A stretch of 64,000 bases of DNA. Origin: Rhizobium lentis (lineage in GTDB: Bacteria > Pseudomonadota > Alphaproteobacteria > Rhizobiales > Rhizobiaceae). The stretch covers positions 205,902-269,901 of the forward strand of contig NZ_CP071458.1 of assembly GCF_017352135.1 (NCBI RefSeq), given 5' to 3'. A program made the translations under genes and the position numbers. Position 1 is the first letter of the stretch. Each line of letters opens with the position of its first letter. The notes below the pieces were generated by a model. The model saw nothing but the letters and a program-made list of their open reading frames with translations. It ran no database searches and was not told where the DNA came from. This document shows, piece by piece, positions 30,797 through 43,214 of this stretch.

Positions 30797-31264
30797 CTAT
30801 TCCACCGTTATCATCCCCGCGAGTGCCTCTCGCGCGTTAGCGACATCTTCAGCTGTGAGGCAAATGGCGGCACCGCCCCAATTGCTGAGAACGTAATTTG
30901 CCAGTCGCGCGATCTCTTCATTGCTCATTTTCCACCCAAACGGCGGCATGTGAACTCCCCTCTGCCCACCGGTTGTGCCGGCAATGATCATTTCAATCAG
31001 GTGTTGAGCCTTAGGGACATCGTTCCCGGCAAGCGATGGGATCATTGACTCGATGCCTTCGCCCCGAGCGCCGTGGCAAGTCGAACAATTCACCTCGTAG
31101 CTAAGTGCTGCCTGCGCCATTGCGCAGGAAGGAATGGGCATCGGAGCGCGGGTGGAATCAACGACGAGCGATCGACTTAAAACGAAGAGATTGTCCGCCT
31201 GGTGGACTGAGCCACCGAAGGCCGCAACGACGAGCACACCAACAATGTTTTTCCACTCCGCCAT
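30797..31264 (-). CDS. Cytochrome c subunit of a membrane-bound flavin dehydrogenase
   Basis: The 155-residue protein has an N-terminal hydrophobic segment (about 5-20), one heme c motif CSTCHGARGEGIE and an axial Met in HMPPFGWKM. It ends at 30797 and begins three bases after the GMC gene. In gluconate-dehydrogenase-type complexes the cytochrome subunit takes electrons from the flavoprotein and passes them to ubiquinone or an oxidase; those have three hemes, this one has one. It is the last gene of the mos-like operon. Confidence 0.8.
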   Translation of the reverse strand: MAEWKNIVGVLVVAAFGGSVHQADNLFVLSRSLVVDSTRAPMPIPSCAMAQAALSYEVNCSTCHGARGEGIESMIPSLAGNDVPKAQHLIEMIIAGTTGGQRGVHMPPFGWKMSNEEIARLANYVLSNWGGAAICLTAEDVANAREALAGMITVE

Positions 31265-31267
31265 TGG

Positions 31268-33052
31268 TCATCCCTTCTGCAATGCGCCCGGTTTGCGAGC
31301 GTAATTTCCGCAGATCGCGCGCGCCGCGCGTAACGCCAGCGCGCCCACGGTGCCCGTCGGATTGTACCCACCGTTGTTAGGAAAGGCCGATGCACCGACG
31401 ACGAAGACGTTGTGGCAGTCCCAGCTTTGAAGGTGCGAATTTACCGCCGAACTGGTCGGGTCGGCCCCCATGACGGCGCCACCTATCGTATGGTTTGACG
31501 CGCCGATCGCCGTGGTGAATGGTTTCTCGGCGAAGTTGAAGGCGCTGATCTGCGATGCGCCCATTCGCTTGCCGATTTGTATCGCGCGATTCATGGTGAA
31601 CGTCGCCATGGCGCGGTCATTTCGGGCATAGTCGTATGTCAGACGTAACAGCGGAAGGCCGAAGGGATCCTTGTAGGTGGGATCAAGATCAAGGTACCCA
31701 CGCTTGATCGGCATCGATGTCCCTTGATTGAACAGGACTCCATAGTTCTGGTAGTAGTTCGAATAAGCTCTCTTGAAGCCCGAGCCCCAGCGTGGCGTGC
31801 CCGGTGGCAGCTTGTTGGCGTTGGCAATCGGTGTGCCGTCGCGCGAAAGAGTCAGGATGCCCGCCCCACCGATGAAATCGAGTGACGAGTGGTCGAAATT
31901 GTCGCTGTTGTAGTCGTCGATTTGAGAGCCTAGGCCACCGGCCCCGATGAATGGATTGATGTGGTCTTCCTCGAACCAGAGATCTGCCCCCGACACGGTC
32001 TGGAAGCTGAAATTGCGGCCGACGACGCCTTCGCTTGTGAGCGGGTCATACGGCTTGCTTATGCCCGACAGAAGCATCAGTCGAACGTTTTCCATTTGGA
32101 AAGCCGTTAGACAAATGATATCGGCCGGCTGCAGAACCTCGCTACCGTTCTGGTCGATATAGGTCACGCCGGTCACAGATTTTCCGTCAGCAGCTTTGTT
32201 GACGCGCGTGACACATGCGTTGGTGATGAGCCTGAAGTTGGGGTTATTATTCAACAGAGCTGGAAAGACGCACGTCTGCGGACTTGCCTTCGAATAGTTG
32301 CCGCACCCGTAGGACGAACAAAAGCCGCAATAGGTACATGGCGCCATCGTAACACCGAGCGGATTGACATAAGCCTGCGAGACATTCGCACAGGGAATAG
32401 TAAAAGGGTGAAGACCCATCTCCGATGTCGCCTTGTTGAAAATCTCCATCATGCGGAGCGTTTTCAGCTTCGGTGTCGGGTATTCCCGCGACCGCGGCCC
32501 TTCGAAGGGATTGCCCCTGCTTGTGAGCTTGCCCCTGAGGTTGCCTGCCTGACCGGCTACGCCTGCAATTTGCTCCCAACGATCATAGTCGGGTTCCAGT
32601 TCAGCGTAGGTGATGCCCCAGTCCTGCAACTGCAATTCCCCGTCTTCAGCGCGGGCCATGCCATAGCGTTGGATCGTTTCGCTACGAACCCGAAAGTCCC
32701 AGGGATTGAAGCGCCAGGCCATTCCTGCCCATTGGAACCCCTGGCCCCCGACGCCTCCGCCGAGCTCCGAAATACCGAAGTCACGCTGTGGCACGGCCGT
32801 CTGGTCCAACGTGTTGCGCATGGTGAGAGTGGTGTCGTGCGGCGGTGCGAGCAGCTCCCTGCGCGTTTTCCAGCGCAACTCGTCGGGATCAGCCGTAAGC
32901 GGCGTATCTGGAAAGGTATCTCGCCAAGGACCGCGGTCAATCGCGACGACGTTCATATTTGCGCGGGAAAGTTCCGCGGCCATGAGCGAACCTGCCCAGC
33001 CGAACCCGACGATGACAGCGTCAACCTTGGGATTGGTGCGTCTGGTGGTCAT
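31268..33052 (-). CDS. GMC-family FAD dehydrogenase, large subunit
   Basis: The 594-residue protein has the FAD-binding start VDAVIVGFGWAGSLMAAELS and the family end VFVVGASAFPNNGGYNPTGT followed by VGALALRAAR. It is of the gluconate/fructose-dehydrogenase type, which oxidises a secondary alcohol of a sugar acid or polyol in the periplasm. A Cys-rich segment (APCTYCGFCSSYGCG) may bind an Fe-S cluster, as reported for some related FAD dehydrogenases. It lies between the small subunit and the cytochrome gene. The placement behind an aminotransferase for inositol-type substrates suggests a polyol substrate such as an inositol; this is inference. Confidence 0.8.
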   Translation of the reverse strand: MTTRRTNPKVDAVIVGFGWAGSLMAAELSRANMNVVAIDRGPWRDTFPDTPLTADPDELRWKTRRELLAPPHDTTLTMRNTLDQTAVPQRDFGISELGGGVGGQGFQWAGMAWRFNPWDFRVRSETIQRYGMARAEDGELQLQDWGITYAELEPDYDRWEQIAGVAGQAGNLRGKLTSRGNPFEGPRSREYPTPKLKTLRMMEIFNKATSEMGLHPFTIPCANVSQAYVNPLGVTMAPCTYCGFCSSYGCGNYSKASPQTCVFPALLNNNPNFRLITNACVTRVNKAADGKSVTGVTYIDQNGSEVLQPADIICLTAFQMENVRLMLLSGISKPYDPLTSEGVVGRNFSFQTVSGADLWFEEDHINPFIGAGGLGSQIDDYNSDNFDHSSLDFIGGAGILTLSRDGTPIANANKLPPGTPRWGSGFKRAYSNYYQNYGVLFNQGTSMPIKRGYLDLDPTYKDPFGLPLLRLTYDYARNDRAMATFTMNRAIQIGKRMGASQISAFNFAEKPFTTAIGASNHTIGGAVMGADPTSSAVNSHLQSWDCHNVFVVGASAFPNNGGYNPTGTVGALALRAARAICGNYARKPGALQKG

Positions 33053-33096
33053 ACTTGTTGAACCTCGATAATTGCAGGAAGCAGAGAAACGCTTCC

Positions 33097-33828
33097 TCAG
33101 TTCTTCGGAACGAGACTGACGGGGACCAGATTGAGCTTCTGTCCTGTCCGGTCGGTGTAAGCTCTGTAATCGTAGCGAGCACCGGGGAAGCCGATCATCT
33201 TCCAGCCCGCCATATCTTTGTTCCCGCCATAGTACGGATCGGCGAAATAACCCTCGCGGACATTGGTCAACATAAGTTCGAAAAAAGCTCTAGCATCGAG
33301 GGCCGTTCCCAATTTGATCGTGCCCTGCTCCATACCTGCTAGAATTTCATCCTGGCGGCTCGGCGGCAGGTCGGCGAAGGACGCGCTGTCCGTTTCTAAG
33401 GTATAAGCTCGCAGCGCTTGGAGGCCGGCACGGTATCGCTCGCGCGGTGTGGCGATAAATTGGGCCTTCTGAAGCATTTGCTCTTCGTGCGGTTGCTCAG
33501 GTCCTTCTCGATAGAGCGTCGAGGCTTCCCCGTACCCGCCGGTAAGTTGTGCGTCGAGGAAATCAAGGCATCCAACTTTCGATGCTGATGGTCCAAACTG
33601 ATCTTCGGGAATCAGACGATCGAATACCGCCTTTAGGGTCCTCACGTCCTCATCATCCATGAGAGCCTTGCGAAAACCCCCGTGCTCGATCGACTTCAGG
33701 GGGGATCTTTTATTTGAGTCAGTCCCGGTGGGGTATCCACTCATTTCCTCGCCACAGGCGGGCTTGCATCCGATCGGACCGGCGGCAACGAGCGCCCCGA
33801 TGAGGGTTAGTACGTCTCTCCTTTTCAT
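33097..33828 (-). CDS. Gluconate 2-dehydrogenase subunit 3 family protein
   Basis: ATG 33828 gives MKRRDVLTLIGALVAAGPIG, a Tat-like signal with RR and a hydrophobic stretch. The 243-residue protein has the subunit-3 pattern LKAVFDRLIPEDQFGPSA and FLDAQLTGGYGE. In this family it carries the flavoprotein across the membrane by hitch-hiking on the Tat route. The frame is open upstream to 33954, but that part overlaps the MFS gene and is not typical. It precedes the GMC gene by 44 bp. Confidence 0.8.
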   Translation of the reverse strand: MKRRDVLTLIGALVAAGPIGCKPACGEEMSGYPTGTDSNKRSPLKSIEHGGFRKALMDDEDVRTLKAVFDRLIPEDQFGPSASKVGCLDFLDAQLTGGYGEASTLYREGPEQPHEEQMLQKAQFIATPRERYRAGLQALRAYTLETDSASFADLPPSRQDEILAGMEQGTIKLGTALDARAFFELMLTNVREGYFADPYYGGNKDMAGWKMIGFPGARYDYRAYTDRTGQKLNLVPVSLVPKN

Positions 33829-33880
33829 ATTGAATCTTCCCTTTTGCAACAAAAGCTTATTGCGGCTCATCCCAAGGCCA

Positions 33881-35044
33881 TCAGCGTGAAGCGGGCGGGC
33901 GTTTGCGTCCTTGAAAAAGGACCGATGCATACGCCAGCGTCGCTCCGACCGCACTGACGATCAGCAAGGCTTTGTTGAGCCCCACTGCGCCGGCCGCGCC
34001 ACCAATGATGGGTGGACCGACGAGAAATCCGGAATAGCCGCAGACCGACACAAATGCGGTCCCGAGACCGTCTGGCACCACCTCACTTGCATTTCTGAAG
34101 ATGATAGGCACTAGGTTAGCCATGCCTATGCCCAGTAAGGAAAAGCCGGCGAGCGCAGCTGCGAAAAACGGGATTGACAATGCTATTGTCATGCCCGCCG
34201 ACATGAGGCCGCCGCTAATCGCAATCATGGCGCGATCACCGATAACGCTTCCGATGCGGTCTCCTGAGATCCGGCCGACGATCATAAAGACCGCAAAGGC
34301 CAGGTAACCCAGGACGGCAGTCTGAGGCGACGTTGGCCAGTAGTCCTCTAGATAGATCGTGCTCCAATCGGCGATTGCTCCATCGCTCATCATGGTGAGG
34401 AATGACAGGAATCCGAGCAAAATGAGCCTGCCGTTGCCCAATGCCCCTAACTCCAGACTGATCCTGCTCCGATCAGCGTCCAGATCAAGGTGTGGGAAGA
34501 GTCGCCAAGAAAGCATTAGAGTGCCAACCAGCAAGGCAATGGCCTGGACCAGCGGATGATAGCCTCGACCAATCCACCAGTAGGACAGAAGTGAACCCGC
34601 AAGCGCTCCAATGCTGGAGAAACCATGCAGTAGCGATATGACGGGATCGCTTCCTCTCTTACCAAGATTGGTGCCCTGGTCGTTCATCGAAACGTCCATT
34701 GAGCCGTTCGCGGCGCCGAACAGGCCGACGCCGACCAGGAGGGCGATGTGGTTTGGAGCTACAAACACAAAACATAGCGCAGCTGGAAAGAATAGGCAGG
34801 ACAGGATCGATATCCGCCGGCTCCCGAAAATCTGCACGAGATAACCCGTGAGCGACATGATCAACACCGCTGCGGCTCCCATTGTTAGGAACACGATGCT
34901 GAGCCCGAACTCGCTCAGACCAAACGACCGTCGGATATGAAGTATGTTTGTCGCCCAGGTGCCATATACCACTCCGTTTATAAAGAACTGGAAAGCCACC
35001 GCCATGACTCGCTTTTGGGGAACAAATATGCGAGCGTTACTCAT
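33881..35044 (-). CDS. mosC: MFS transporter, MosC-like
   Basis: The 387-residue protein has about 12 membrane helices and the MFS loop YLVQIFGSRR. It resembles the bicyclomycin/fucose-type exporters next to mosB. In Sinorhizobium meliloti L5-30, mosC encodes a membrane protein thought to export the rhizopine; I assign the symbol from position behind a MosB-like gene, not from a detailed match. It follows mosB by 79 bp on the same strand. Confidence 0.6.
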   Translation of the reverse strand: MSNARIFVPQKRVMAVAFQFFINGVVYGTWATNILHIRRSFGLSEFGLSIVFLTMGAAAVLIMSLTGYLVQIFGSRRISILSCLFFPAALCFVFVAPNHIALLVGVGLFGAANGSMDVSMNDQGTNLGKRGSDPVISLLHGFSSIGALAGSLLSYWWIGRGYHPLVQAIALLVGTLMLSWRLFPHLDLDADRSRISLELGALGNGRLILLGFLSFLTMMSDGAIADWSTIYLEDYWPTSPQTAVLGYLAFAVFMIVGRISGDRIGSVIGDRAMIAISGGLMSAGMTIALSIPFFAAALAGFSLLGIGMANLVPIIFRNASEVVPDGLGTAFVSVCGYSGFLVGPPIIGGAAGAVGLNKALLIVSAVGATLAYASVLFQGRKRPPASR

Positions 35045-35123
35045 TGGAGGCTCCGCTTCCGTTGTCGAGATGATCAGGACCTGCGTAGAGCTGCCAGAAC
35101 CATCAGGCCCGTGGGTTGCTTGT

Positions 35124-36389
35124 CTATTCTAATGAGGCAAAGTAATCGCTCCAGACTTGCCTGAGCTTCGAAACGACAGCCGTCATGGTTGAGGGATCCT
35201 GGGCAATCAATGGGTACTTCTCGTCGAAAACGATGAACGAGTTTTCGATTGCAAGGTGCCCCGCAGTTTTGGTCCAGTCGATCGTGCCCGCATACGGCCT
35301 GAACACCTTCTGAAGCGGGAGTATAGGTGCTGTCCACAGCGTGCTCGGAATGCCGCTCCTAGCAAGAGTGTTGCGCAGCCCTTGTCTGATGTCCGCCATT
35401 GATCTCCCGTAGTGATCGACTGCCCCATAGTCGATACCGACGCGGATCTTGTGCCAAACATGCGTTTGGTGGGAGCCGGGCTGGGTGATTTTGAGAAAGG
35501 GAACTTGTGCCGCCTCTGCAACGAGTGGCTTCATAGCCTCCTGGAGCCATTCTATCCGTTGATCGAGATGCTCTAGCTGATCGATCACCAGAGCCGCCGA
35601 AAGCGGGTTTAACCTAAACATGCCGCCGATCTGCTCGCACTCACGAAAGACGGCATATCCTTCCCGCAGCCCCTCCTCAAAGTGATAATTATGCTTTGGC
35701 GTAGGAAGGCCGAAGTTGCAGATATCGCGTGCCTTTTGGGCAAGGGCGGCATTTCTCGTCACAAGGAAGCCACCGTCGCCGGCGGAGAAATGCTTGCTTT
35801 TCTGCATGCTGAAGCAGCCGATGTCAGAGAGAGTCCCGACATACTGTTTCTTATAGAGTGCGCCGTGGGCCTGGGCGCAGTCCTCAATGATGGGAACTCC
35901 TTTCTCCCGCGCAATGGCGGTAATCTCGTCCATTTCGCAGCTCAGGCCATGCATATGAACGACGATGATTGCCTTGACGTCCGGCGTAATCGCTTTAGCC
36001 ACTGCCTCGGTAGAGAGATTGTAGGTGTCGCTATCAATGTCGACGAAGCGGGGAATGGCGCCGATAAGAGTCGCTGCAAATGCAGTGGCGCTCCAGGTGT
36101 AGGAAGGCACAAGAACAACGTCTTCCGGCCCAACGCCGAGCGTCAGGAGGGCCACCATCAGCGCGGTAGTGCCGCTATTTGTCGAGACGACATGACCGCC
36201 GCCGATCCAATTCTCCACCGTCTTTTCAAACTCATTAATGACTTCCAGACCCGAGCCGGAAAGTTCACCAGACGAAATACACGCGATGACTTTCCGGTAG
36301 TTCGCTCCCGTTAAAATCGGCCACCGATGCAGCGTCCGGGTTCCGTTTGGCTCCGCAGAGGGAACCTGAAAATTTGGCTTTGATGGCAT
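35124..36389 (-). CDS. mosB: DegT/DnrJ/EryC1 aminotransferase, MosB-like (rhizopine synthesis)
   Basis: The 421-residue PLP enzyme has the family segments STNSGTTALMVALLTLGV, VLVPSYTWSATAFA, the acidic PLP ligand in IIEDCAQAHGA and the PLP lysine in CFSMQKSKHFSAGDGG. Enzymes of this family transfer an amino group to keto-sugars or keto-cyclitols. MosB is the rhizopine-synthesis member, taken to aminate an inosose to scyllo-inosamine. Upstream lie a sigma-54 promoter and an exact NifA site, as expected for genes made in bacteroids, which supports the assignment. A broken second copy of its 5' end lies further upstream. Confidence 0.75.
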   Translation of the reverse strand: MPSKPNFQVPSAEPNGTRTLHRWPILTGANYRKVIACISSGELSGSGLEVINEFEKTVENWIGGGHVVSTNSGTTALMVALLTLGVGPEDVVLVPSYTWSATAFAATLIGAIPRFVDIDSDTYNLSTEAVAKAITPDVKAIIVVHMHGLSCEMDEITAIAREKGVPIIEDCAQAHGALYKKQYVGTLSDIGCFSMQKSKHFSAGDGGFLVTRNAALAQKARDICNFGLPTPKHNYHFEEGLREGYAVFRECEQIGGMFRLNPLSAALVIDQLEHLDQRIEWLQEAMKPLVAEAAQVPFLKITQPGSHQTHVWHKIRVGIDYGAVDHYGRSMADIRQGLRNTLARSGIPSTLWTAPILPLQKVFRPYAGTIDWTKTAGHLAIENSFIVFDEKYPLIAQDPSTMTAVVSKLRQVWSDYFASLE

Positions 36390-36450
36390 TTAATTTACCC
36401 CCGTGTGGGTTGGTGCATCCCGGGCGTCAATGTTGCCCGCTTCCATACTG

Positions 36451-36466
36451 AGCACATCTCGTGCCA
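36451..36466 (-). promoter_or_regulatory. Sigma-54 promoter of the mosB operon (inner copy)
   Basis: On the minus strand TGGCACG-AGAT-GTGCT matches the -24/-12 consensus, including the -12 GC, with correct spacing. Transcription would start near 36440, about 50 bases before the mosB ATG. Confidence 0.75.
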
Positions 36467-36517: not shown

Positions 36518-36533
36518 TGTCCGACATTGGACA
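36518..36533. promoter_or_regulatory. NifA upstream activator site of the mosB operon (inner copy)
   Basis: TGTCCGACATTGGACA is an exact TGT-N10-ACA and a near-perfect dyad (TGTCC...GGACA). It lies 52-67 bp upstream of the -24 element, somewhat closer than in nifH and rpoN. Confidence 0.75.
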
Positions 36534-36845: not shown

Positions 36846-36896
36846 ACCAGACCCGCATCGGAAATGAAGGGGAGTTTCGCGCTTGGCGGTGTTGGA

Positions 36897-36912
36897 TGTC
36901 CGACATTGGACG
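36897..36912. promoter_or_regulatory. NifA-site-like sequence, outer copy with one changed base
   Basis: TGTCCGACATTGGACG corresponds to the inner NifA site but the last base of ACA is G. Binding may be weakened. The flanking 90 bp are visibly homologous to the inner copy. Confidence 0.55.
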
Positions 36913-36920
36913 TGCTCATG

Positions 36921-37401
36921 TCCAGATCGTTGTCTTCAGTTGCCCCGACACAGGTAAGTCGAAACCCATCTTGAGTTCTGCGGTTTCCATCTCTGGGAGA
37001 GGGCTTTCGCGCGCCGTTCGGCCTCATTTGTATGACGGCGGTCTTCGCGCGAGCTGTTTATTACTCTGCCGCACGCGTTCACCGTGCTCGCGAAATGCTA
37101 TCTCCGTACGCTTTTTAATCTGCCTGATGTGGCGTTTCCGCACCGATCCGCCGCCAATAATGTACGAATTACGGGCTGCCGGCTCATGCCCAGCTCGATC
37201 TCCCTCGCAAAGCTGCGTGCTGCCAGCATGCTCCACTCATCGTCAAAGGCTTTCGTTAGCTCCGATAACGCTCGCCGCCACGGGCCGGATGTGGACCTAA
37301 GAAATCGTTCAGAAACGGTTCTACTTATCGACCCAATACTGTCTAATGTTCCCAAACCCGCGACTGAATTACACTTGCGCGGAAGAACAAAGGGAACAAC
37401 A
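36921..37401. other. Intergenic region between the mos leader and the ABC transporter genes
   Basis: Minus-strand frames here give protein-like text (DDEWSMLAARSFAREIELGM, VIRTLLAADRCG) but in more than one frame and with no family I can name. It may be a decayed gene. The 3' end probably holds the promoter of the ABC operon; no -24/-12 pattern was found. Confidence 0.35.
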
Positions 37402-38416
37402 ATGCAAGCGTTAAAACCGCTACTAAACAACTGCGCAATGATGTCGGCTAGTAAAGCCCTTACAGCCACCAGCACATTGGCATGGGCGCTTATGCTCATC
37501 TGCATTTCAAATGCAGCACCTGCATCTGCCGAAGAAAATATTTCCATCTACTTCGTCGGGTGTGCGGCGCCAACCGGCTTCCACGGCTATCTTGCGCGCG
37601 GCGCTGAAGAGCGCCGGAAAAAACCTTGGAGTCAAGGTCAACTATATCTATCCCGACCAGCTGACAATTCCCAACCAGATCCAAAAGATCGAGGAAGCCA
37701 TGGCAGCGCAGGCGGACGGTATCGCGGTTTGCGCTTTCGCCGACGACGCCGCCTATGCCGATGTGGCTGCACGAGCCAAAGAAGCCGGGATCGCGTTCGG
37801 CAGCGCCGCGGCGCCTCCGCCGGGGTCGCATATCCGAAAGCCGGACGATATTTTTCTCTTCCGCGCCGGTTCTGACGAAGGCGCCGCCGGACAGCTGTCG
37901 GCCCGACGTCTGCGCGACATGGGCGTAAAAGGACGCGTGGTTGTTGCCAATCAGCAACCCGGTGACGCAACTTGCCAGCTGCGTGCAACCTCCGAAATAG
38001 ATGCCCTCAAAGCCGGTGGGATCACGGCGGACTTCCTGGAAATGTCAATGGATCCGGGCCAGCAGGCCGAAACCCTATCCAACTATCTGCGTCGCAACCC
38101 TGACACAGTCGCCGCGACGAGCACATGTGACGTGGTGGACGGCTTCCTGACGGCGAAAGCGGACAGCGGACGGAACGACCTGATCCTGACCGGCTACGAC
38201 ATCAATGCACAATCGCTCACGGCGATCAGTGATGGGCGGCAGGCTTTCACGATCGACCAGCAGCAGTTCTGGCGCGGCTACATGCCTGTTCTGCTGCTCA
38301 CTCACTACCTGAAATATGGCTTGCTCGAAGGAAACTACTTCCTGACCGGCCCGACGATCGTGGACAAGACCAACGTTGAGAAGGTTCAGGCGCTGGTGGG
38401 CAAGGGTTATCGTTGA
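37402..38416 (+). pseudogene. Sugar/inositol-type ABC transporter binding protein, frameshifted
   Basis: ATG 37402 begins a protein with a signal peptide ending ASAEENISIYFVGCAAPTG and HGYLARGAE. Close to 37610-37625, at a run of A residues, the frame changes. The rest continues in another frame (AGKNLGVKVNYIYPDQ, IQKIEEAMAAQADGIAVCAF, ... ALVGKGYR) to the stop at 38416. Joined, the two parts make a normal periplasmic binding protein of the ribose/inositol group (LacI/RbsB fold). Either the gene is dead, or the shift is a sequencing error or a programmed slip. It heads an ABC operon with the two next genes. Confidence 0.75.
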
Positions 38417-38430
38417 GCGATAGTCTGGGA

Positions 38431-38456
38431 GCGACCCGGTCATTTCGCCGGGTCGC
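38431..38456 (+). terminator. Intercistronic hairpin after the binding-protein gene
   Basis: GCGACCCGG (38431-38439) and CCGGGTCGC (38448-38456) form a perfect 9-bp stem with an 8-base loop. It is followed by AATCTTCT, not a T-run. Hairpins in this place usually protect the upstream binding-protein message and lower expression of the permease. Confidence 0.6.
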
Positions 38457-38487
38457 AATCTTCTAATCAATTTGGCGGGAGGCCAAA

Positions 38488-39576
38488 ATGTCCGACGAAA
38501 TCCACCTCGCCCACGCCCCTACACGCAGCATCGCTTGCGCTGAAGCGTTCCGTCGCTTCATGCTTCGGCCTGAAGCAACATCGGTCGCTGCCGTTGTCAT
38601 CCTTTTCATCCTGTTTTCCCTACTCGCGCCGCAGCTGTTTCCGACCAAGATTACTTATATCAGCATCATGGCGATCGCTGCTGAACTCGGGATCGTGTCT
38701 ATCGGCGCCACGCTGTTGATGATCTGCGGTCATTTCGATCTTTCGGTCGGCGCTGTACTCGGCCTCACATCTTACGTTTGTGTTGTATTGATGCGCGATA
38801 ATGGATTTGATCCAGTTTCGGCATCGGCCGTCGCGATCGCCGCCGGCGCAGCGCTGGGGGCGGTCAACGGATACATGGTTGTGCGTTTCCGCATCCACTC
38901 TTTCGTGGTGACGCTTGGCACAATGCTCATTTGGCGCGGTGTTTTGATTGCGCTTACCGGCGGATTTCCGATGACGGTGGAGATCCCTGCAAGCTTCCGG
39001 GCGACGATGGCCGGACCGTTGATCAGCGATTTTCGTATGTCGATGTTATGGTTTCTCTTGATAGGGATTTCAGGGACGCTTCTGCTCTCCCGTACGAAAC
39101 TCGGTAACTGGATCCAAGCACGGGGCCAGAACGAGAACGCGGCCAGGAATCTCGGCGTACCGGTCGATAGGGTCACCATCATCGTCTTCATGATCTGCTC
39201 CGCGCTGGCTGCCATCGCAGGAATAATTCAGGTTGCACGCTTTGGATCCGTAGATGCGCTGCGGGGCGAAGGTTTCGAACTTCAAGCGGTCGCAGTGACA
39301 GTGATCGGGGGGACACTCCTCTCCGGTGGCTATGGTAGCATTATTGGAACGATCCTGGGCGCCGTTACCTTCGGAATGATCCAGGTCGGGCTGGTTCTCG
39401 CGGGAGCCCCGGGCATCTCTTCAAGACCCTCACCGGAATGATCGTGGTTGGTGCCGTCATCCTCAATACATCGATCAGCAAGCGGATGTCAAAGTCGCGA
39501 CCTTTGTCGGGCTATCGTCGGGACAGTTCGACAGCAGACGCAGCAATCAACGCCCAGACCGCGATCAGCAAGAACA
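38488..39576 (+). pseudogene. ABC transporter permease (RbsC type) with a C-terminal frameshift
   Basis: The frame from ATG 38488 gives an RbsC-like membrane protein (LGIVSIGATLLMICGHFDLS, VGAVLGLTSY, AVTVIGGTLLSGGYGS) that runs into a short false end at 39441. In the other frame HLFKTLTGMIVVGAVILNTS continues the expected last helix to TGA near 39576. A one-base change near 39405 therefore removes the last helix. With the shift in the binding protein this makes two frameshifts in one operon. The family moves pentoses, inositols or similar substrates. Confidence 0.7.
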
Positions 39577-39593
39577 CGAACGGATGAAATGAA

Positions 39594-40457
39594 ATGAGCA
39601 AGGACGTGATCTCTAATGACAGCCAGGCAGCGGTCGCTACTCGTGCCTTACCCGCAGGCAGCGGCAGCGATGATATGAGGGGGCTCACGCGCCAGATTGA
39701 GCCAATTAAACCGGCAGACGTGCCGGTCATTGAAGCCATCGGACTATCGAAGGGCTTTGGCGCGACCACGGCGTTGGTGGATGTGTCTCTCAAAGCCTAC
39801 TCGGGTCGTATTCTTGCCCTTTTAGGCGACAATGGAGCGGGCAAGTCCACGTTGATCAAAATCCTTTCCGGAGTATTTCCAGCGGATCGCGGCGAGCTGC
39901 GCTTCAATGGGGAAGCCATTGTTTTCCGCAATCCGAAGGACGCGCGTGAACGTGGCGTCGCCACGGTGTTTCAGGATTTGGCGGTTTGCGAACTTCTCTC
40001 CGTCACCCGTAACATCGTTCTCGGACGAGAACCGCAACGAGGTTTAGGCCCGTTCAAATGGCTCGATCTAAAACGCGCAAATGAGATGGCGCAGTCGGCT
40101 CTTCATCGGTTAGGCGTGCGCTGGGAGCGCGGGTTGGACGAAAGAGGAGCAAACATATCCGGTGGCGAGCGCCAGTCGCTCGCTATCGCCAGGGCCATGT
40201 ATTTTGGATCCTCTCTCCTCATTCTCGACGAGCCGACATCGGCCTTAGCGGTGCGGCAGGCGGGCAAGGTTCTCGATCATATCGTCACTGCCCGCGACCA
40301 AGGTCAGGCCGTCATTTTCATCACCCATAACTTCCGGCACGCCCTAGCGGTCGCTGACGATCTTGTTGTCCTCTCGCAGGGAAAGGTTGTTGGCACCTTC
40401 AGGCGCGACGAAGTCAATCTCGATGACCTCACTGACCTTGTTGCCCATGTGGGCTAA
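39594..40457 (+). CDS. ABC transporter ATP-binding protein, sugar type
   Basis: The 287-residue protein has one ATP-binding domain: Walker A GDNGAGKST, Q-loop in VATVFQDLAV, signature ISGGERQ, Walker B LLILDEPT and the H-loop ITHN. Sugar-type ATPases of the RbsA class have two such domains, but the FrcA/inositol type has one, as here. ATG 39594 follows GAAATGAAATGAGC. It is intact although its partner genes upstream are frameshifted. Confidence 0.85.
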   Translation: MSKDVISNDSQAAVATRALPAGSGSDDMRGLTRQIEPIKPADVPVIEAIGLSKGFGATTALVDVSLKAYSGRILALLGDNGAGKSTLIKILSGVFPADRGELRFNGEAIVFRNPKDARERGVATVFQDLAVCELLSVTRNIVLGREPQRGLGPFKWLDLKRANEMAQSALHRLGVRWERGLDERGANISGGERQSLAIARAMYFGSSLLILDEPTSALAVRQAGKVLDHIVTARDQGQAVIFITHNFRHALAVADDLVVLSQGKVVGTFRRDEVNLDDLTDLVAHVG

Positions 40458-40619: not shown

Positions 40620-41430
40620 CTATCTGAGTGCTGCAGGCTGGCGCTCCGAAAGCTGCGGCATGTTCGATGCCTCGCTAAAACGCGCAAGTGAATCTTCGGC
40701 ACATTTTAGAGTGTTAGCCATCAGCATGGCGATCGTCATAGGCCCGACACCTCCTGGAACGGGCGTGATCCCCGCCGCGACTTTTTCAGCCTCCTTGAAA
40801 GCAACATCTCCGACAAGCCGTGTCTTGCCCTCGCCTTATTCTGGAGCCAGCACGCGGTTTATACCGACATCGATGATTGTCGCGCCTGGCTTCAGCCAAT
40901 CACCGCGAACCAATTCGGGACGGCCGACCGATGACAAGAGCATTCAGCCGGAAAGGTTGTCTCCGTCGGCGTGCCGAATGAGCATCATAGCACCGGCCGG
41001 TGTGCAGGAGACCAGTCCAGTAACGAGATTCCCACTCGCCACTTTCCCGGCGTTTACGACGTGCAGGCCATCGACGTCCTTCTCCGGCAGAATAGACCGG
41101 ATGATCTCTTCTTGCTCTAAGTGTTTCGGCAATGGCAACTGAACGAGGATTCCGTGGATAACTTTGTCCGCATTCAGCAGCGCTATCCGATCTAGCAGCT
41201 CTTCCTGTGAGGTTTCTGCAGGAAGATTATACTGCATCGAACGGAAGCCACACCAGCTGGCCATCTCGCTTTTGGCGTTCACATAGGTACGGCTAGCTGG
41301 ATCGTCCCCAACAAATGACCACTGCGAGACCGGCTTCGAGCCCAGAGGTGTTCTGAAGCTCAGCTGCCCTTGCCTTCACTGCATCGAGGACCCGATCGAA
41401 GTTTCGTTTTCCCAGCAAAACATACGCCAT
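40620..41430 (-). pseudogene. folD: Broken folD (methylene-tetrahydrofolate dehydrogenase/cyclohydrolase)
   Basis: ATG 41430 opens [20 protein letters not shown]. After a frameshift near 41310 the text goes on as [18 protein letters not shown], then [20 protein letters not shown] and [11 protein letters not shown], the FolD signature. About 55 residues of the NADP-binding part (the GRSNIVGKP region) are missing, and the end resumes with [13 protein letters not shown] and [16 protein letters not shown]. FolD interconverts C1-folates. It lies four bases after purU, where it would have completed a C1 module. Confidence 0.8.
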
Positions 41431-41433
41431 GCC

Positions 41434-42318
41434 TCACCCCATCCTTTCCGAAGCGAAGCTGCCGGGGCTTGCCGGGAAGACCACGGTGCGATTGCCGTTG
41501 ATGAAAGTACGGTGATGGATATGGGCGTGGATGGCGCGCGCCAGCACCTGGCTTTCGACGTCGCGGCCGATCGAGACATAGTCGTCGGGCGACTGCGCAT
41601 GGGTGATGCGCGCCGTGTCCTGCTCGATGATCGGGCCTTCGTCGAGATCGGCGGTGACGTAATGCGCCGTCGCCCCGATCAGCTTTACGCCGCGTTGATA
41701 GGCCTGCTTGTAAGGATTGGCGCCCTTGAAGCTCGGCAGGAAGGAATGATGGATGTTAATGATCCGGCCGGACATTTTCTGGCACATCGCATCCGAAAGC
41801 ACCTGCATGTAACGGGCGAGCACAATCAGCTCAGTGCCGGTCTGTTCGACGATATCCATGATCTGGCCTTCGGCCTGCAGCTTGTTCTCCTTCGTCACCT
41901 TGATATGGTGGAAGGGAATGTCGTGGTTGACCACGACCTTCTGGTAATCGAAATGGTTGGAGACGACGCCGACGATATCGATCGGCAAGGCCCCGATCTT
42001 CCAGCGATAGAGCAGGTCGTTCAGACAATGGCCGAAGCGCGACACCATCAGCAACACCTTCATGCGCTTTTCGCTGTCGTGAAAATTGTAGTTCATTTCG
42101 AAGGGCGCAGCGACGGCTGCGAAACCCGCGTCGATATCCGCGCCCGAAAGGCCCTCTTCCGAGATGAAGCTGACGCGCATGAAGAACTTGCCGGTATCGA
42201 GATCGTCGAACTGCGAACTGTCGATGATGTTGCAGCCCTTGTCGGCCAGATAGCTCGAAATCGCCGCGACGATGCCGCGCGTCGACTTGCAGGATACCGT
42301 CAAAACATAATTGGTCAT
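41434..42318 (-). CDS. purU: Formyltetrahydrofolate deformylase
   Basis: PurU splits formyl-THF into formate and THF. The 294-residue protein has an N-terminal ACT domain (about 5-75) and the formyltransferase-like catalytic part with NIHHSFLPSFKGANPYKQA (active-site His) and the Asp in HYVTADLDEGPIIEQD. It follows the panB-like gene after 41 bp. Next to an O-demethylase cluster it may recycle the methyl carbon as formate; this is inference from neighbours. Confidence 0.93.
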   Translation of the reverse strand: MTNYVLTVSCKSTRGIVAAISSYLADKGCNIIDSSQFDDLDTGKFFMRVSFISEEGLSGADIDAGFAAVAAPFEMNYNFHDSEKRMKVLLMVSRFGHCLNDLLYRWKIGALPIDIVGVVSNHFDYQKVVVNHDIPFHHIKVTKENKLQAEGQIMDIVEQTGTELIVLARYMQVLSDAMCQKMSGRIINIHHSFLPSFKGANPYKQAYQRGVKLIGATAHYVTADLDEGPIIEQDTARITHAQSPDDYVSIGRDVESQVLARAIHAHIHHRTFINGNRTVVFPASPGSFASERMG

Positions 42319-42359
42319 GCTTTATCCCTAATTCGCGATCGCACGGTGCCATCACGACA

Positions 42360-43175
42360 TTATCTTGTGGTGGCGGAAAGCGGCTGTTCACTTTCGACTT
42401 TTCTCAGAAAGCCTTCGAGCTCCTCTGGCGATATGCTGACCAAGTGCCCCTTTTCTGGGTATGCACCAGATCGCACGTCTTCAGCATATTCGCGGAACGC
42501 TTCCACACGCTCCCGATGCAGCCGATCGAATTCAGAAGCAAAATCGCGGTAGACTTTAGCGTGGCGAGGATAATGACCCCGGTTCTGCCCAAGCACATCC
42601 TCGGCAAAAAGGTATTGGGCATCGCATCCTGTGCCCGCACCCATGGAAAGCATCAGGAGTGATGTGCGTTTGGAAATTGCCGCAGCGACCTCGCCAGGCA
42701 CTACCTCGATTTCAGCTGCGAAGGCGCCGGCCTCCTCGAGAGCTTTCACCTGACGCCAGACTTCAAATGCACTGGCGGCCGTTTTACCGACTGCGCGAAA
42801 GCCGCCCGTCCATGTCGCTTTAGACGGAATAAGCCCGACATGGCCACAGACCGGGATTCCTTCCTCCCGTAGGCGTCGCACGGTCGACATTCCGGCGGCG
42901 CAGTAGACAGCGTCGCCGCCGGCACGAATTGCCTCGAAGGCGGCTCGAAGGTAGTCCTCAGCAGTAATCAGATCATCCAAACCGGGAAATGCGAACACGG
43001 TTGGGGCCACCTCGCGAAAGGCGGGGCCAAGCAGTTCCGGAGGAACCGAGACGAGATCGATGCCCGCCTTCTCCGCCGCCTCAGCTTCCTCAAGCGTGAC
43101 GACCCGCAGCATGCTGAGCTGCCTGTGACCTCTGATTGACAACAGGTCGGCGACGGTCGGGCGGCGATGATTCAT
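42360..43175 (-). CDS. PanB-like ketopantoate hydroxymethyltransferase family protein
   Basis: ATG 43175 follows GGAGATTTCC and gives a 271-residue protein with the PanB pattern: VADLLSIRGHRQLSMLRVVT, GIPVCGHVGLIPSKATWTGG (with the GHxGLxPQ motif) and IEVVPGEVAAAISKRTSLLM. PanB moves a one-carbon unit from methylene-THF to a keto acid. The sequence is divergent (VCGHVGLIPS), so it could serve another acceptor. In this operon it lies between mocF and purU, consistent with a role in C1 transfer during rhizopine breakdown (inferred). Confidence 0.7.
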   Translation of the reverse strand: MNHRRPTVADLLSIRGHRQLSMLRVVTLEEAEAAEKAGIDLVSVPPELLGPAFREVAPTVFAFPGLDDLITAEDYLRAAFEAIRAGGDAVYCAAGMSTVRRLREEGIPVCGHVGLIPSKATWTGGFRAVGKTAASAFEVWRQVKALEEAGAFAAEIEVVPGEVAAAISKRTSLLMLSMGAGTGCDAQYLFAEDVLGQNRGHYPRHAKVYRDFASEFDRLHRERVEAFREYAEDVRSGAYPEKGHLVSISPEELEGFLRKVESEQPLSATTR

Positions 43176-43214
43176 GGAAATCTCCAGCACGTTTTAGAGT
43201 GAATGGTGGCAGCT

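Follow-up and report, generated by a model that had tools for sequence, protein, structure and literature searches.

A Rhizobium rhizopine-synthesis operon whose cytochrome subunit seems to lack two of the three haems of its relatives

The closest described system to the locus considered here is the mosBCDEF gene set, which was named in 2019 and reported from all rhizobia producing the rhizopine 3-O-methyl-scyllo-inosamine (PMC6668481). In the same work a strain with a disrupted mosE made no rhizopine, and purified MosB used glutamate to aminate 3-O-methyl-scyllo-inosose. MosDEF failed in plant leaves, and a need for a bacterial membrane or electron transport chain was suggested (PMC6668481). 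We analysed a stretch of 64,000 nucleotides from Rhizobium lentis (positions 205,902 to 269,901 of NZ_CP071458.1, part of contig C5 of a 6.42-Mb genome; hereafter the window), in which five minus-strand genes are identified, by homology and by their published order, as the mosBCDEF rhizopine-synthesis operon. The original prediction held that these genes extend the known mos set; since mosDEF had already been named and tested (PMC6668481), that claim falls away and the operon itself adds little. What seems to be new is that the cytochrome subunit of the rhizopine operon is without two of its relatives' three haems. Taken as a whole, we consider it quite likely that mosBCDEF makes rhizopine from D-ononitol in the nodule, that MosDEF was recruited from catabolism and that MosF kept the third haem domain.

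As called from open reading frames (ORFs) and Pfam, the operon begins with mosB (36389-35124), specifying a 421-aa aminotransferase of the DegT/DnrJ/EryC1/StrS family, followed by mosC (35044-33881), a 387-aa transporter of the major facilitator superfamily (MFS_1), and mosD (33828-33097), a 243-aa member of the gluconate 2-dehydrogenase subunit 3 family (Gluconate_2-dh3) with a twin-arginine start. The last two genes are mosE (33052-31268), coding for a 594-aa GMC flavoprotein with a Cys-rich motif from residue 239, and mosF (31264-30797), coding for a 155-aa one-haem cytochrome c with its CxxCH at residue 60 and an MPPF Met at residue 106. All five proteins reach Pfam gathering scores, MosF via Cytochrome_CBB3/Cytochrom_C, and none reaches an NCBIfam cut-off. 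The GMC large subunit and the Gluconate_2-dh3 small subunit, both features of three-subunit flavin adenine dinucleotide (FAD) dehydrogenases, are present, and MosB is 72-75% identical to its counterparts in S. meliloti and R. bangladeshense. The original prediction was right about this architecture: its five same-strand genes with gaps of 79, 52, 44 and 3 bp agree exactly with our coordinates, and Pfam and homology bear out its MosB-type aminotransferase and, by domains, its membrane flavin dehydrogenase with a cytochrome c. It also suggested looking for the same genes in other mos loci; mosC and mosD are present in 14/14 MosB-bearing loci, with a cytochrome ORF behind mosE in each. A simple scan gave no terminator-like site in the four mos gaps, a scan that is uninformative, as it returned 8 sites over 10 kb against 11.1 in shuffles.

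The MosF of the window has one CxxCH in place of the three expected of a three-haem cytochrome c subunit. Counting CxxCH motifs beside mosE gave one haem in all 14 MosB-bearing loci, in proteins of 128-181 aa; this count leaves aside L029 (CP050564), L033-L035, L041 and L043, with L009 and L043 (G422), L010 and L041 (G400), and L042 and NZ_CP054024 treated as the same. An intact three-haem gene, on the other hand, occurs in 39 of 43 MosE loci that are without MosB (35/38 plus 4/5). These 43 comprise 35/35 places of the MosE search without MosB, 5/5 places outside our own genome and 3 plasmid records picked among 107 of less than 60% MosE identity. A first count left 7 of 38 MosB-less loci without a cytochrome call, which on rechecking resolved into five three-haem genes, one split gene (L091) and one locus with none (L079). 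Four exceptions thus stand among the 43: the three-haem gene of L091 is split by a frame change, L073 has an unrelated one-haem cytochrome, and L079 and L095 are without a cytochrome beside mosE (in L095 none lies within 1.5 kb). A sequencing error truncating a three-haem gene was rejected as the source of mosF, because all 14 loci agree. The main text of PMC6668481 does not use the words cytochrome, heme, haem or mosF, and we found no report of a one-haem subunit in the open-access literature, in which few searches were aimed at this point and supplements were left out.

The haem domain that remains can be placed by comparison with the 436-aa three-haem subunit of L044, a MosB-less Rhizobium locus in genome G460. 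The window MosF matches its haem domain 3 at 1.0e-29, domain 2 at 0.28 and domain 1 not at all, and the S. meliloti MosF likewise matches domain 3 at 1e-24, against 1e-4 and 0.65 for the others. MosF also aligns to residues 334-439 of the fructose dehydrogenase cytochrome subunit. At the other end of the protein, the N-terminal 39 residues of the window MosF and about 50 N-terminal residues of that from S. meliloti match the L044 N-terminus (0/2000 shuffles as good in either case), the former being significant against L045 as well. MosF thus corresponds to the third haem domain of a three-haem subunit, together with its N-terminal anchor in two of three lineages. Most simply, haem domains 1 and 2 would have gone in an internal deletion some 250-270 residues long, followed by further trimming in Rhizobium.

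In a maximum-likelihood tree of 52 MosE rows (46 different), rooted at the midpoint and with some long outer rows, all 14 mos loci group in a single clade (100/100), to which L044 is sister (100/100). The next branches (99/99) are the loci of G493 (L045), Pantoea (L089) and Thioclava (L090), all with three-haem subunits. This topology suggests a single event of haem loss.

Several observations weigh against the reading given above. The 14 MosB-bearing loci represent three lineages rather than 14 independent events. The N-terminus of the window MosF is not significantly similar to those of L089 and L090 (p 0.17 and 0.21), and that of R. bangladeshense MosF shows no match to L044, L045, L089 or L090 (p 0.16 to 0.5). 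The supporting biochemistry comes from S. meliloti and other rhizobia rather than from this strain; the S. meliloti record (L030) has no promoter like the tandem NifA-type one of the window mosB within 0.9 kb of its own mosB; and the fast evolution of MosF could also mean weak constraint. The uneven ends—with about 39 N-terminal residues retained in the window, about 50 in S. meliloti and none recognisable in R. bangladeshense—might further be taken to mean that Sinorhizobium and Rhizobium each lost the haem domains on their own. We hold this to be unlikely: all 14 loci fall in one MosE clade, needing one label change on the tree, and trimming after one deletion explains the ends.

A second alternative has MosF as a decaying remnant, with the complex working without it or using another cytochrome. 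MosF is indeed the fastest-evolving member of the set, with 36% identity between lineages and a variable length; against R. bangladeshense and S. meliloti its ratio of nonsynonymous to synonymous rates (dN/dS) is 0.42-0.61 versus 0.12-0.35 for MosB to MosE, these being rough values from the Nei-Gojobori method with the Jukes-Cantor correction at a dS near 1. Against the close Vaf-46 copy, MosF and MosC are alike at 0.34. Yet an open frame with its CxxCH directly follows mosE in every MosB-bearing locus counted, and both this motif and an MPxF-type Met are kept in 5/5 MosB-bearing rows checked, which makes a decaying MosF distinctly improbable.

The reaction proposed for the complex follows from published work. 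With mosDEF in Rm1021, nodules accumulated 3-O-methyl-scyllo-inosose, and ononitol accumulated in mosE and mosB mutants (PMC6668481); an ononitol dehydrogenase and an aminotransferase under NifA are restated in PMC10107442. Because of the Rm1021 result, D-ononitol rather than myo-inositol is the favoured substrate of MosDEF, and the homology of MosE (77% to that of S. meliloti RCAM1115), together with that work, suggests D-ononitol dehydrogenase activity here as well. In linking cyclitol oxidation to rhizopine synthesis the original prediction fits these data; its choice of myo-inositol comes second to the conversion of D-ononitol to 3-O-methyl-scyllo-inosose. If MosDEF instead oxidised myo-inositol to scyllo-inosose, MosB would yield scyllo-inosamine, a product it does make in an assay coupled to the inositol dehydrogenase IolG, so that it accepts the unmethylated ketone (PMC6668481). 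However, the methylated ketone from Rm1021 nodules, the ononitol in the mutants and the mocD/E/F-type genes of both the window and L044 render this route rather improbable. An O-methylated rhizopine product also fits because mocDEF-type genes share the window. There, MocR scores 761.9 bits with the NCBIfam equivalog NF052281 (cut-off 650), while gene order and similarity to S. meliloti RCAM1115 led us to assign mocD, mocE, mocF and mocB, under names of our own choosing. The window further contains a MocA-like gene and one of the iolE type.

The content of L044 points to the likely origin of the rhizopine pathway. Besides homologues of mosD and mosE (63% and 72%) and the three-haem cytochrome, this locus holds a LacI-type regulator, a substrate-binding protein 75% identical to the window MocB, ATP-binding cassette (ABC) transporter genes, mocD/E/F-like genes, a panB-like gene and the start of purU. 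No mosC occurs in the 18 kb covered, and the best MosB match in G460 is 40% over a part. In the Thioclava locus, iolE adjoins the dehydrogenase genes. Because the sister of the mos clade is thus a MosB-less, three-haem locus with a MocB-like importer, mocDEF, panB-like and purU genes, MosDEF was probably recruited from a catabolic methyl-inositol dehydrogenase and then lost two haems. That the one-haem form is instead ancestral and the L044 subunit a regained three-haem version can draw on L044 being the nearest relative of the mos clade, but is very hard to credit, since L044 is placed outside the clade of the 14 mos loci and three haems are the rule deeper in the tree, L073, L079, L091 and L095 excepted.

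On the reading that we prefer, the pathway would probably work as follows. NifA and sigma-54 would switch on the mos operon in nodules; MosD, with its Tat-like start, would carry MosE to the periplasmic face; and there MosDEF would oxidise the plant methyl-inositol D-ononitol to 3-O-methyl-scyllo-inosose, with electrons passing via MosF to the respiratory chain. MosB and glutamate would then convert the ketone to 3-O-methyl-scyllo-inosamine, and MosC might either import the ketone to a cytoplasmic MosB or export the rhizopine. A twin-arginine motif stands at the MosD start in 7/7 loci inspected and MosE has no signal of its own, which suggests that MosDE are periplasmic, with MosF held by its N-terminal segment. 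MosB is predicted to be cytoplasmic because it has no signal and uses pyridoxal phosphate (PLP) and glutamate. A ketone made outside would then have to cross the inner membrane to reach MosB, and MosC is a possible importer. In the main text of PMC6668481 this topology is not taken up under the words periplasm or export. For the present strain, the same reactions and the periplasmic location are predictions, as is the job of MosC.

With haems 1 and 2 gone, electrons would have to leave from the single remaining haem. We take haem 3 to be the entry haem of fructose dehydrogenase, an assumption to which we give no weight. For that enzyme, transfer is said to involve two of the three haems (PMC5937911), and we did not find the haem nearest the flavoprotein identified by domain number in PMC5937911, PMC8348568, PMC7349488 or PMC7506675. 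A tentative extension, for which we put the chances somewhat short of even, is that MosDEF is a naturally downsized membrane dehydrogenase, in which domains 1 and 2 were deleted on takeover for nodule rhizopine synthesis, so that a single haem stayed on behind a membrane anchor, and the electrons rerouted off the usual quinone path. If so, the cytochrome c/cbb3 oxidase chain of the bacteroid might, for instance, receive them, and the downsizing would suit a low-oxygen, low-flux biosynthesis rather than growth on a sugar alcohol. A one-haem subunit would also give a testable reason for the failure of MosDEF in plant leaves, and narrows the acceptor.

The dehydrogenase family is common and its rhizopine version rare. 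MosB was found in 1 of 394 sampled genomes of the family, namely our own (E 1e-80), in 4 of 148 genomes of the genus (E 1e-60) and in 12 of 72,556 plasmid records (E 1e-80); the same 12 accessions all hold MosE at 60% identity or more. MosE, by comparison, occurs in 33 of the 148 genus genomes (E 1e-60), and a MocR over the cut-off in five, including all four with MosB. Protein clusters matching MosB at E 1e-60 number nine, of which one (60%) is named Palleronia caenipelagi; P0006, P0007 and P0008 are relatives of 53-60% identity outside the rhizobial set. A protein-database search with MosF returned one cluster, which says little, since its word-based sensitivity misses relatives of 36% identity. 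Beside 18 distant MosB relatives (L011-L028, 26-37% identity), no mosC to mosF was seen in the available DNA, some of it short. On the Sinorhizobium plasmids H27-H31 and H44-H49 only about 290-580 bp of mosB matched, at 73-74%, perhaps as what is left of a mosB or as part of some related gene. One further Rhizobium locus (L046; G397, contig C137) has two MocR-type regulators over the cut-off, 57% and 47% identical to the window MocR, adjoining a 35% MosB-like aminotransferase and an iolE-type gene, in a genome without a MosB or MosE match at the limits used.

Before mosB lie promoter elements of the NifA/sigma-54 type, all on the minus strand. A consensus scan and a joint pattern place the proximal -24/-12 site TGGCACGAGATGTGC at 36466-36452, with a TGT-N10-ACA (NifA-type) site from the motif scan at 36518-36533. 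Further upstream, a second -24/-12 site, TGGCACGAGCAGTGC, is found at 36845-36831, followed by a diverged mosB 5' fragment (78% over residues 1-62), and has its own TGT-N10-ACA site at 36890-36905. The promoter and the mosB 5' end thus form a diverged tandem duplication, with 79% identity between the copies. The original prediction had placed the operon behind one -24/-12 promoter under NifA/sigma-54-type control; the elements are indeed there, but as part of a tandem copy that it did not report. On the strength of these motifs, NifA control is probable in this strain. At the upstream position two sites overlap at an offset of 7 bp, and in R. bangladeshense both fit TGT-N10-ACA. In the proximal copy of the window it is the second site that departs from the motif, by one mismatch, and in the distal copy it is the first. 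Vaf-46 shows divergence on the -12 side of its distal copy. By itself, the -24/-12 consensus with two mismatches allowed is not specific (93 matches versus 67.6 expected), whereas the joint pattern (GTGC at -12 and 35-65 bp to the upstream site) gave 2 matches in the window versus 0 in 100 shuffles. Over the 6.42-Mb genome it gave four, two being these sites, with none for a reversed control; as the pattern was fitted to these sites, the counts show rarity and are not an independent test. A TTGC form of it had no match. The other two genome matches (L040 2529-2623 and 4456-4549; contig C5 171528-171622 and 173455-173548) face, in one case, peroxiredoxin-like and electron-transfer-flavoprotein (ETF)-domain (FixA-like) genes and, in the other, genes with domains of the polyhydroxyalkanoate (PHA)-synthase type; the former we presume to be NifA targets. 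The NifA-type promoter region seems to differ between the Rhizobium and S. meliloti lineages. In L030, the start of a NifH-like protein, as read from the printed DNA, stands about 0.85 kb upstream of mosB.

The replicon is a symbiotic plasmid of the Rhizobium leguminosarum bv. viciae (pea/vetch) type: over the mos stretch, plasmid p_4 of R. leguminosarum bv. viciae RCAM2802 shows 99.8% identity, and R. leguminosarum A1 and R. indicum have plasmids that agree with it at 98.4%. On the RCAM2802 plasmid the mosF side holds cco (fixNOQP-type) and nif/fix genes and the mosB side moc-type genes. Genes for a cbb3 oxidase begin about 1.1 kb behind mosF in this plasmid lineage. We rejected this oxidase as a fixed mos partner; its genes lie close to mos in the window, L087 and L042 but were not seen in the stretches covered for L010, L041, L030 and L044. 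Between mosB and the moc genes, 37402-40457 on the plus strand holds an ABC sugar transporter set (substrate-binding protein, permease, ATPase), whose substrate-binding protein gene spans two frames here (ORFs 37084-37875 and 37511-38416) and is one 1014-nt gene in related plasmids. Beside the mocF/E/D-type genes, at 40944-43190 on the minus strand, stand a panB-like gene, a 294-aa purU that exceeds its cut-off and a 112-aa piece of folD; the first two of these occupy the corresponding place in L044, in R. bangladeshense (L010) and in S. meliloti (L030). It looks as if this set handles the one-carbon unit freed by demethylation. We found no paper in the open-access literature joining rhizopine with formyltetrahydrofolate deformylase.

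Among known systems, the mos locus of S. meliloti RCAM1115 has the same genes in the same order (MosB 72%, MosC 52%, MosD 72%, MosE 77% and MosF 32% identical), with a MosF of 181 aa against 155 aa here, and in the published locus mosDEF likewise stands behind mosC (PMC6668481). The published mos genes were described from S. meliloti L5-30, whereas these identities refer to RCAM1115, L5-30 not being among the compared records. L044 shares the mosD and mosE homologues, the MocB-like protein, mocD/F, the panB-like gene and purU with the window, and differs in its cytochrome and in having neither mosC nor a full MosB. The 2-deoxy-scyllo-inosose aminotransferases (2c7t, 5w71), which act in antibiotic pathways, belong to the same PLP family as MosB and have a keto-cyclitol substrate (E 3.5e-46), though 8gyh, an unnamed DegT-family entry, scores above them (1.1e-54). 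They are named as glutamine-using, whereas MosB was assayed with glutamate (PMC6668481). MosE aligns near full length to the large subunit of the fructose and FAD-glucose dehydrogenase complexes (7w2j, 8hdd, 6a2u; E 9.9e-29), and the NH of the active site lines up; for MosD no solved relative was found by sequence. The cytochrome of the fructose dehydrogenase type has three haems, whereas MosF has one and matches the third haem domain. The 320-residue fructose dehydrogenase cytochrome chain 9jqa_C aligns only to the segment that carries the last two haem domains, and MosF may be seen as a natural counterpart to that shortened PDB complex.

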